Source: a bacterium (lineage in GTDB: Bacteria; Blakebacterota; Blakebacteria; Blakebacterales; Blakebacteraceae). From it: DNA of 5,805 nt. The notes under the pieces were generated by a model. The model did not search any database. It saw only the letters and a program-made list of their open reading frames with translations, and had not been told where the DNA came from. The position numbers and the translations under genes were made by a program. Numbering within the stretch: position 1 is the first letter of the stretch; each line of letters begins with the position of its first letter. The DNA lies in contig JALGWK010000146.1 in the NCBI GenBank assembly GCA_025774205.1, forward strand, positions 1 to 5,805, written 5' to 3'. Positions 2,949 through 5,805 of the stretch are shown here, one piece after another.

Positions 2949-3350
2949 ATGGATGAGGTTCGGTACGGTATCACTCGAGAATTCCCTGAAATTCCCTTTG
3001 AGGAAGCGGTCACAAAGGTCACCGAGGCCATCGCGGCAGAGGGTTTCGGGATTCTGACCGAGATCGACGTGAAGGCGACGATGAGGAAGAAACTGGACGT
3101 CGACTTCAGGAAGTACGTCATCCTGGGCGCCTGCAACCCTCCCCTGGCCCTCCGGGCGCTCTCGGCGGAGCCTCACATCGGACTCCTCCTGCCCTGCAAC
3201 GTGGTGGTGATGGAACGAGACGGCGGCGGCAGTATTGTTTCCGCGATCGATCCTGAAACACAGTTCAAACTGGTTGGCAGGCCGGGTCTGGGCAAGATCG
3301 CCTGCGAAGTGAAAGAGAAGCTGGAGCGGGCGCTGGAGAGCATCTCCTGA
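2949..3350 (+). CDS. DUF302 domain protein
   Basis: The 133-residue protein is one DUF302 domain with no signal peptide or membrane helix, so it is probably cytoplasmic. Recognisable family features are an N-terminal strand-helix (residues 4-32), the [14 protein letters not shown] block (32-45), the [16 protein letters not shown] motif (56-71), [11 protein letters not shown] (77-87), and the V-S-A-I-D-P strand (97-102). Cys62 in GACNPP and Cys83 in LPCN sit in the two conserved motifs and could act together in redox chemistry or metal binding, which is speculation. The family has no agreed biochemical function. The stop codon overlaps the proposed CTG start of kbl by 4 bp (CTGA), pointing to one transcript and coupled translation. 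The start is set by a strong Shine-Dalgarno site. Confidence 0.9.
3335..3340 (+). promoter_or_regulatory. Shine-Dalgarno site for a CTG start of kbl
   Basis: GGAGAG lies within the last codons of the DUF302 gene, 6 nt upstream of the CTG at 3347, which is good spacing. By contrast, the first conventional start (ATG 3392) has a purine-rich GAGGAG directly abutting it with no spacing. The site supports initiation at 3347. Confidence 0.6.
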
Positions 3351-4537
3351 CAACCTCACTTCCGAAACAACTCCGGGAACACCTCGAGGAGATGAGGCAG
3401 CAGGGGCTGTTCAATGTCGAACGGGTCATCGGTTCGGCCCAGCAGGCTGAGATCGAGTTGGCCGATGGTCGCAGAGCAATCAACCTGTGCGCCAACAATT
3501 ACCTGGGACTGGCGAACCACCCGAAGGTGGTCGAAGCCGCCAGGGAGGCGCTCTCCCGGTTCGGTTTCGGCATGGCATCGGTACGCTTCATCTGCGGCAC
3601 CCAGGAGCCGCACGCGGAACTGGAAAAACGGATCAGCCGTTTTCTCGGCACCGAGGACACCATCCTCTACTCCTCCTGCTTCGACGCGAACGGCGGTCTG
3701 TTCGAGGCTCTCCTGGGACCCGAGGACGCCATCATCAGCGATGAACTGAACCATGCCAGCATCATCGACGGAATCCGTCTGTGCAAGGCCGGGAGATTCC
3801 GGTACCGCAACAACGACATGGCCGACCTGGAGACCCGGCTCAGGGAAGCCGCCGATCGCCGCCACCGCCTGATCGTCACCGACGGGGTCTTCTCGATGGA
3901 CGGGATCGTGGCCGACCTGCCCGGGATCTGCGATCTCGCTGAGGAGTACGACGCCCTGGTGATGGTGGATGATTCCCACGCCACCGGATTCATGGGACCA
4001 GGAGGCCGCGGCACCCACGAACATCACCAGGTCATGGATCGCGTTGATATCCTGACCGGCACCCTGGGCAAGGCTCTGGGAGGCGCCAGCGGCGGTTACA
4101 CCTCCGGTCGAAGGGAGATCGTCGAGTGGCTGCGTCAGCGCTCCCGACCATACCTCTTCTCCAACACCCTGGCACCGGCCATCACCGTCGCGTCTCTGAC
4201 GGTTTTCGACCTTCTGGAAGAGAGTGATGACCTGCGTGTGCGATTGAGGGAGAACACCGCCTTCTTCAGAGCTGGACTGGAGCAGATGGGTTTCGAGCTC
4301 GTCCCGGGAGAACATCCCATCATCCCGGTGATGCTGGGCGACGCGGTCCTGGCGACGGCAATGGCGGACCGATTGCTGGATGAAGGGGTTTTCGCGGTCG
4401 GTTTCTCATATCCGGTGGTCCCGAAAGGCAGGGCGCGCATCCGTACCCAGATGTGCGCGGCCCATACCCGACCGCAACTCGATCGCGCCCTGACTGCATT
4501 CAGCAAGGTGGGGCGCGAACTGGGCATCATCGCGTAA
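3347..4537 (+). CDS. kbl: Glycine C-acetyltransferase (2-amino-3-ketobutyrate CoA ligase), probable CTG start
   Basis: This PLP-dependent alpha-oxoamine synthase joins 2-amino-3-ketobutyrate with CoA to give glycine and acetyl-CoA, the second step of threonine breakdown via threonine dehydrogenase. It is cytoplasmic. Kbl-specific blocks match the E. coli enzyme as I remember it: [43 protein letters not shown] (His136), VDDSHATG (Asp208, His211), [15 protein letters not shown] with the Schiff-base lysine at 242, [11 protein letters not shown], and IPVMLGDA. These separate it from the related BioF. Start: ATG 3392 would give 381 residues and lose the N-terminal helix. The same frame continues upstream without any ATG, GTG or TTG, but from CTG 3347 it reads [20 protein letters not shown] (first residue as Met), collinear without gaps with the first 30 residues of E. 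coli Kbl and giving 396 residues against about 398. Automated callers would choose 3392. Threonine dehydrogenase is not in the window. Identity is near certain; the start is probable. Confidence 0.93.
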
Positions 4538-4626: not shown

Positions 4627-5265
4627 CTACCTGGAGCCCTCGCCACCGCCGACCTCGGGATGGGCCGACCATTTATCGAAGTCGGTGCTGGTCACAGTCA
4701 GTCTTACACGACGCTTCTCACCAGACTTGAGGTCGGTCGGGGTCGTCGGACCGAGTTCGATCCCGTTCGAGAGGTGAACTTCCACCCGGACGCGTGTCAG
4801 GATCTGTTCGGTAGTGTTCTCCACCGTGCCGACGAAAGAGCTGCTCTCGGCATCCCAGTTCAGGATCAAGCGGGCTCCATTCCTGACGTTATCGTAGGTA
4901 TCGTTCAGGCCGAATTCGGTACCTGATTCCTCGCCACCTTCACCTTCCTCGCCATGCTCACCTTCACCACCTTCCCCGCCATGCTCGCCGGAACCCTCAC
5001 GTGATTCTTCCCGGCCATGCTCACCTTCAGCGCGCTCTCCGCTGTGCTCGCCTTCACCGCGCTCTCCACCATGCTCGCCTTCACCCTCACGACTGACGAC
5101 CGCATCGCGCTCGTGTTCTCCCTGCTCAGCGGTCAGTTCGGGCAGTTCCAGACCCTCGTCCACCTTACCACTACCGGAACAACCGCCGAGTACGGCAGAA
5201 ATCACGAAGGCTATCATGGCCGTTATCAGCAGGTTTCTTCCGTTCGATCCGAGCCTGTTTTTCAT
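4627..5265 (-). CDS. Lipoprotein with Gly/Glu/His-rich repeats and a beta-rich C-terminal domain
   Basis: The 212-residue product has a lipoprotein signal peptide: basic n-region (K2, R4, R10), hydrophobic stretch at about 12-27, lipobox LGGC with Cys29 lipidated. A linker (30-48) leads to an extremely acidic low-complexity region (49-115) built from a nine-residue unit like GEGEHGGER; histidines fall at 51, 65, 74, 83, 95 and 104. Residues 118-205 form a separate beta-rich domain with the motifs NGARLILNWD, FVGTVENTTEQIL, RVRVEVHLSNGIELGPT and a closing WSAHPEV. Its alternating strands suggest an Ig-like, FxLYD-type fold, which is inference. The regularly spaced histidines and many acids could bind metal ions, also inference. 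It is envelope-anchored, probably facing the periplasm or surface. A possible AAGGA ribosome site lies about 12 nt before the ATG. A membrane-protein gene lies 111 bp upstream on the same strand. I do not recognise a named family or specific function. Confidence 0.85.
   Translation of the reverse strand: MKNRLGSNGRNLLITAMIAFVISAVLGGCSGSGKVDEGLELPELTAEQGEHERDAVVSREGEGEHGGERGEGEHSGERAEGEHGREESREGSGEHGGEGGEGEHGEEGEGGEESGTEFGLNDTYDNVRNGARLILNWDAESSSFVGTVENTTEQILTRVRVEVHLSNGIELGPTTPTDLKSGEKRRVRLTVTSTDFDKWSAHPEVGGGEGSR
4945..5085 (-). repeat. 27-bp coding repeats giving a nine-residue GEGEH unit
   Basis: The region codes for residues 61-107 of the lipoprotein. Units with little divergence are GEGEHGGER (61-69), GEGEHSGER (70-78) and AEGEHGREE (79-87). 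After a 3-residue offset come two looser units ending near 107. Histidine spacing is 9, 9, 12 and 9 from residue 65 onward. At DNA level, near-copies of CATGCTCGCCTTCACC and GCGCTCTCC recur on the plus strand with 27-bp spacing, so the array likely grew by tandem duplication and could vary in copy number. Confidence 0.85.
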
Positions 5266-5376: not shown

Positions 5377-5805
5377 TCAGCCTCCGAATCCAATGAAGGC
5401 ACTGGTAACCAGAACCCCGATAGCAAACCACAGACAGGTATCGCAGAGAGACTTCCGCTTTGCCCGCTTCCCGAAGAACTCCGTTTCCGACTCCGGATCG
5501 GGATCGACATCTGATCCGAAACCATCAAAGAGTTCGCTCAACCGGGGATTCAAACCAAAGAAGATCTTCGCCATGATCACCATCATTCCGAAGACGAAGG
5601 CGAGTTTCAGCACCAGCGCAATCAGAGCCACAGAAGGAAGTGCCTTGAATGCCCCGTGGAACAGGTAATGGTTGACGGGCATCCCTATTCCGGTGATGAA
5701 CAGGACCGAAATGAAGACCATGCAGTATGGGGCGTTCCCCTGAAGTGTTTCCTCGACCACTTTATCCAACTCGTAGTGCAGCTTCGGCCCATACTGGCCT
5801 CTCTT
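5377..5805 (-). CDS. Small three-helix membrane protein, start beyond right edge
   Basis: The frame is open to the window edge, giving 142 visible residues before the TGA at 5377-5379. The first visible residues (YGPKLHYELDKVVEETLQGN) read as a real amphipathic protein segment, so the TTG at 5769 is unlikely to be the start and the gene is annotated as 5'-partial. Three hydrophobic segments follow: about 27-49 (YCMVFISVLFITGIGMPV...), 55-83 (ALPSVALIALVLKLAFVFG...), and 123-142, ending close to the C-terminus. Between the second and third lies a charged loop (86-120), first acidic (DVDPDPESETE) then basic (KRAKRK), consistent with a cytoplasmic position. A CDTC motif (121-124) precedes the last helix. 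I do not recognise the family. It lies on the same strand upstream of the repeat lipoprotein gene; a shared transcript is possible, although the 111-bp gap holds a promoter candidate. Confidence 0.7.
   Translation of the reverse strand, partial: KRGQYGPKLHYELDKVVEETLQGNAPYCMVFISVLFITGIGMPVNHYLFHGAFKALPSVALIALVLKLAFVFGMMVIMAKIFFGLNPRLSELFDGFGSDVDPDPESETEFFGKRAKRKSLCDTCLWFAIGVLVTSAFIGFGG

Follow-up and report, generated by a model that had tools for sequence, protein, structure and literature searches.

A kbl gene probably translated from a CTG codon that overlaps the stop codon of a DUF302 gene in a Blakebacteraceae draft genome

Where does translation of kbl begin at a locus in which the nearest canonical start codon lies well inside the conserved protein? 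The window, which is the whole 5,805-nucleotide stretch analyzed here, is contig 421 of a 3.09-Mb draft genome (G000; 527 contigs, 85.9% complete, 4.8% contaminated) that is fragmented and shows signs of local assembly duplications. The evidence supports reading kbl as a gene with CTG at the start position conserved in its family and with no canonical start there. We estimate a probability of roughly 0.8 that kbl is translated from CUG 3347 as a full-length, 396-residue Kbl protein. The features of the locus, in window coordinates, are as follows.

2949 to 3350, plus strand: DUF302 protein gene, 133 aa from ATG 2949; last codon TCC, stop TGA at 3348 to 3350
3335 to 3340, plus strand: Shine-Dalgarno (SD)-like GGAGAG, with a 6-nt spacer to CTG 3347; duplex energy of -6.4 kcal/mol
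3347 to 3349, plus strand: proposed CTG (CUG) start of kbl, whose TG also opens the DUF302 stop TGA; placed by ortholog starts and the 1FC4 register
3347 to 4537, plus strand: kbl, glycine C-acetyltransferase/2-amino-3-ketobutyrate CoA ligase, 396 aa, no internal stop
3359 to 3400, plus strand: predicted N-terminal helix, kbl residues 5 to 18 (AlphaFold2 model)
3392 to 3394, plus strand: first canonical in-frame start of kbl, ATG, equal to residue 16; gives 381 aa; the choice of a standard gene caller

The upstream gene product matches Pfam PF03625 (2.8e-25); an alternative in-frame ATG is present at 2922 and is poor by SD scoring. By curated family cut-offs, the kbl product is assigned to glycine C-acetyltransferase (Kbl), scoring 668 bits against NF005394 (cut-off, 460) and 653 bits against TIGR01822 (cut-off, 493), both of which are NCBIfam equivalogs. 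Residue K242, within the motif GTLGKALGG, is invariant across 30 aligned sequences; in this family it is the PLP-binding lysine. The codon usage of kbl falls at the 48th percentile of its own genome, and from this average value, the gene looks long resident. Downstream, on the minus strand, a short lipoprotein-like open reading frame (ORF) at 4627 to 5265 contains a low-complexity stretch of 9-bp repeats (GEHGGE...). It matches the FxLYD domain barely above the cut-off, and a relative was not found in the three comparison genomes (G001 to G003).

Rereading of the sequence bore out the anatomy described in the initial annotation. An in-frame TGA at 3254 to 3256 closes the kbl frame upstream, leaving it open from 3257, and the 45 codons that follow, up to ATG 3392, include no ATG, GTG, or TTG. 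The only near-cognate codons in that interval are CTG 3302 and CTG 3347; ATT, ATC, and ATA do not occur there in the kbl frame. The DUF302 gene ends TCC TGA (3345 to 3350), giving a 4-nt overlap, CTGA, at 3347 to 3350, and GGAGAG is separated from the CTG by the spacer CATCTC. Starting at CTG 3347 yields the 396 residues that had been claimed. We rejected CTG 3302, which has no SD (-2.7), lies 15 codons upstream of the start position of relatives, and has no homology upstream of residue 4. We also rejected a DUF302-Kbl frameshift fusion: the junction shows no X-XXY-YYZ slippery site, and the DUF302 gene has a normal stop in the sister genome G001 as well.

One claim did not survive. The CTG start had been said to be backed by four independent features, and we found that overlap, NTG shape, and frame count as a single feature, because a gene that follows a TGA stop in this frame always presents an NTG codon. 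The base before the stop is most commonly C in this genome (172 of 519 crude gene calls). The SD at CTG 3347 (-6.4 kcal/mol versus a median of -6.1 for crude gene starts in the same genome) is matched or bettered at approximately 9 to 13% of random in-gene positions. Coding statistics alone do not show the 5' extension of kbl, which has an unremarkable coding score of 3.7, about rank 24 of 441 genes.

It is homology, through the start position of the family, that makes the CTG start credible beyond chance. The alignment comprised 81 Kbl orthologs drawn from many phyla, with an identity of 60% or more. As the initial annotation had proposed, we checked the start codon used by relatives, and all 81 have ATG or GTG at -1 to +4 codons from 3347; the number with neither near the equivalent position is 0 of 81. 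The nearest canonical start falls exactly at 3347 in 67 orthologs, at -1 codon in 3, at +1 codon in 6, and at +4 codons in 5, and the codon is ATG in 75 and GTG in 6. Since all of them begin at or within a few codons of this position, they carry the N-terminal helix. Residues 4 to 15 of the window protein score 12.0 bits on the ortholog profile (random sequence mean, -21.9; fraction at or above the query, 2e-5), which is higher than 22% of true orthologs, whereas this DNA read out of frame gives -5.5 and -24.9. When the whole open frame was offered, the best NCBIfam matches began at residues 4 to 7 of the CTG version, so homology ends near CTG 3347. The N-terminal register is that of Escherichia coli Kbl, as proposed in the initial annotation: window residue 7 aligns to residue 10 of the 1FC4 chain, equal to native residue 7. 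The chain, with 401 residues versus 398 in the native protein, has three extra residues at the N terminus.

Translation could instead begin at ATG 3392, the sole canonical start in frame, to give a 381-residue Kbl missing most of the N-terminal helix. PLP enzymes of the Kbl superfamily do differ at the N terminus, and the match to TIGR01825 begins only at window residue 9. We nevertheless consider this start very unlikely, given that none of the 81 orthologs begins so far in and that residues 4 to 15, all upstream of the ATG, retain the family pattern. The ATG also lacks normal spacing from its SD: GAGGAG runs directly up to it, and among SD matches at a proper distance the best reaches -4.3 kcal/mol. 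In the AlphaFold2 model of the 396-residue protein (mean pLDDT of 90.1; 82 and 92 for the first two ten-residue blocks), residue 16 lies inside the helix predicted at residues 5 to 18; a start at 3392 would leave three residues of it, in agreement with the earlier claim that the helix would be stripped. What we regard as decisive is that the NTG at 3347 coincides with Met1 of the family and that no other codon nearby can take its place. The CTG start proposed for kbl is a correct observation, and its interpretation is well supported by the sequence.

A sister genome of the same genus (G001) offers a view of the locus with a different neighbor. Its DUF302 ortholog is 85% identical, and synteny with the window extends from within a CsgG-like gene through a DUF819 gene to the end of DUF302, where it breaks; an opposite-strand ORF occupies the place of kbl. 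At the opposite end of the window, the gene at 5377 to 5805 has an 88% identical counterpart in G001, where its neighbors differ. Both contig ends match G001, and therefore both belong to this genus. In G001, the DUF302 gene ends GCC TGA (CTTGCCTGA), with C also at the site of 3347, while GGAGAG is absent from the same place (CTGGATAC) and no kbl follows. We found no close kbl ortholog in G001 to G003, all three of which are incomplete drafts. The C at 3347 was probably already there before kbl, which would have taken its start codon from the end of DUF302. On the simplest reading of this comparison, kbl either came to lie behind DUF302 or was lost in G001; we infer the direction, and with it the order of events, from the arrangement in the two genomes.

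The same comparison bears on the reliability of the base at 3347. If that C had arisen through misassembly or a wrong consensus, or came from a minority strain, the true codon would be ATG, GTG, or TTG. The assembly is a metagenomic draft in which approximately 12 sampled contigs carry exact tandem duplications of 30 to 104 bp, one of them frame disrupting. We consider an error at this base highly improbable, as a C also precedes this stop in G001, with the caveat that C is the commonest base there anyway, and as the frame, the overlap, and the SD are otherwise intact.

Exact tandem duplications of about 40 to 72 bp were observed at L164:9310 (a 71-bp repeat), L204:6219, L236:689, L247:3874, L255:6806, and L262:2886. 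The L164 repeat disrupts a NuoF-like reading frame, which points to assembler errors as the source of the G000 tandem duplications. The window contains an exact 45-bp tandem duplication at 689 to 778, in the CsgG-like ORF, which is single copy in G001; it could be real or an assembly artifact.

The least probable of the readings that we weighed for this gene is that kbl recently lost its start, through recombination behind DUF302 or through mutation, and at present has little or no expression. The lack of kbl behind DUF302 in G001, and of any close ortholog found in the three incomplete drafts, would agree with such a history, and if the loss were recent, conserved residues would not yet have decayed. 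Against this, kbl is preceded by a fitting SD that G001 lacks, its frame is uninterrupted, and its codon usage lies at the genome average.

Returning to translation from CUG 3347, we propose that the codon, whose C closes the DUF302 serine codon and whose UG opens the DUF302 stop, would be reached mainly by translational coupling. A ribosome translating DUF302 would halt at UGA 3348 to 3350, step back one base, and reinitiate at the overlapping CUG, with GGAGAG 6 nt upstream keeping it in place, and the ordinary initiator tRNA would read the codon as (formyl)methionine. Bacteria are known to couple translation where stop and start codons overlap (PMC6728339); the DUF302-kbl pair has the overlapping stop and start and the same direction, and coupling itself is predicted. 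We rejected unusual initiation machinery as an explanation. G000, G001, and G003 each encode an IF3 that scores above the family cut-off, and G001 has a standard initiator-tRNA anticodon stem-loop; the initiator tRNA was not found in G000, which is incomplete.

Published measurements set limits on how efficient such a start may be. CUG initiates at approximately 0.86% of the AUG level in E. coli, and CTG accounts for 0.024% of annotated bacterial starts, in keeping with the rarity noted in the initial annotation (PMC11497404). Changes from AUG to CUG starts among closely related genomes are very rare (2 of 61,358) (PMC5622118). An SD-preceded CUG in Caulobacter dnaA gave a toeprint, indicating 30S binding in vitro, and is unused in the cell (PMC8443254), while in RepFIB rep, a CUG with a good SD (GGAGG) suffices for a start (PMC11983097). 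Because CUG is weak and the Caulobacter dnaA codon is unused in the cell, we regard initiation at 3347 inside this organism as likely rather than certain.

We also looked for noncanonical starts elsewhere in the genome, in a sample of 693,705 unmasked bases from 138 sequences with 441 crude 5'-complete genes, short contigs being masked. CTGA occurs near gene starts 25 times, nearly always with a canonical start close by, often an ATG directly behind (TGATG), so that the tally by itself does not argue for CTG starts. Noncanonical starts may be used by two further genes of the genome. The first is an L-serine dehydratase-like ORF (L259:6836-8392, minus strand; G000 contig 113), in which CTG 8392 and the stop of the preceding ORF form a CTGA overlap, the arrangement also present at kbl. 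It has no canonical start at the conserved N terminus, the profile match extends upstream of the first canonical start, and an annotated Serratia homolog (34% identical) starts at the equivalent of residue 4; the SD of this ORF is weak. Its orthologs are located at G001:C196:21113, G002:C335:3359, and G003:C103:3015. The second is a Kbl/serine-palmitoyltransferase-like paralog (L150:2566-3822, minus strand; G000 contig 490; the same gene in L266) in which ATG, GTG, and TTG are absent before the conserved N terminus. GGAGG is followed after 8 nt by ATT, an arrangement kept in the G001 ortholog (L267; 86% DNA identity), and an AUU start is likely for this gene. Among rejected candidates, a thiolase-like protein at a CTGA in L202 most likely begins at the next ATG, and in the survey for missing starts, the majority of strong hits resembled frameshifts, duplications, or false ORFs.

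Three noncanonical cases among 441 genes are suggestive only, as the gene calls are crude and the cases were deliberately looked for. From these cases, it could be supposed that the lineage tolerates noncanonical starts beyond what is known in bacteria, with CUG reinitiation at CTGA recurring in kbl and L259 alongside the SD-ATT paralog (L150/L266 and L267). We consider this unlikely. The lineage is little sampled, and the comparison comprises four genomes for its phylum.

In kbl, the CTG start is fixed by homology rather than by annotation. Standard gene finders, which accept only ATG, GTG, and TTG, would miss this CTG, as had been asserted, and cut the first 15 residues. Counts of CTG starts based on annotation are probably too low, because finders limited to those three codons shorten such proteins; CTGA overlaps with truncated homologs would offer a better route to an estimate. 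The locus also suggests that CTG starts can arise without mutation of a start codon, since a gene placed in the right frame behind C-TGA gains an NTG.

Among known systems, E. coli Kbl (1FC4) and other glycine C-acetyltransferases share with the window protein their family, a near-equal length, and an N terminus that aligns without gaps from residue 7; the window gene differs in having CTG in place of the canonical start and DUF302 upstream. The ATGA-type termination-reinitiation overlaps described by Huber et al. (2019; PMC6728339) likewise have a 4-nt overlap, an SD within the upstream gene, and genes in the same direction, whereas kbl has CTG instead of ATG and its coupling is predicted from layout. 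In the RepFIB plasmid rep gene, a CTG start was proven by protein sequencing and a CTG-to-CTC mutation (PMC11983097). Both rep and kbl have a CTG with a good SD, and annotation shifts the start to a canonical codon downstream, by 14 codons in rep, as it would by 15 in kbl. Rep is laboratory tested, and its low expression suits plasmid copy control; kbl, in contrast, is a metabolic enzyme gene whose proposed CTG start overlaps the stop of the upstream gene. The CTG start of kbl adds a good new case to a rare kind already known rather than revealing a new mechanism.
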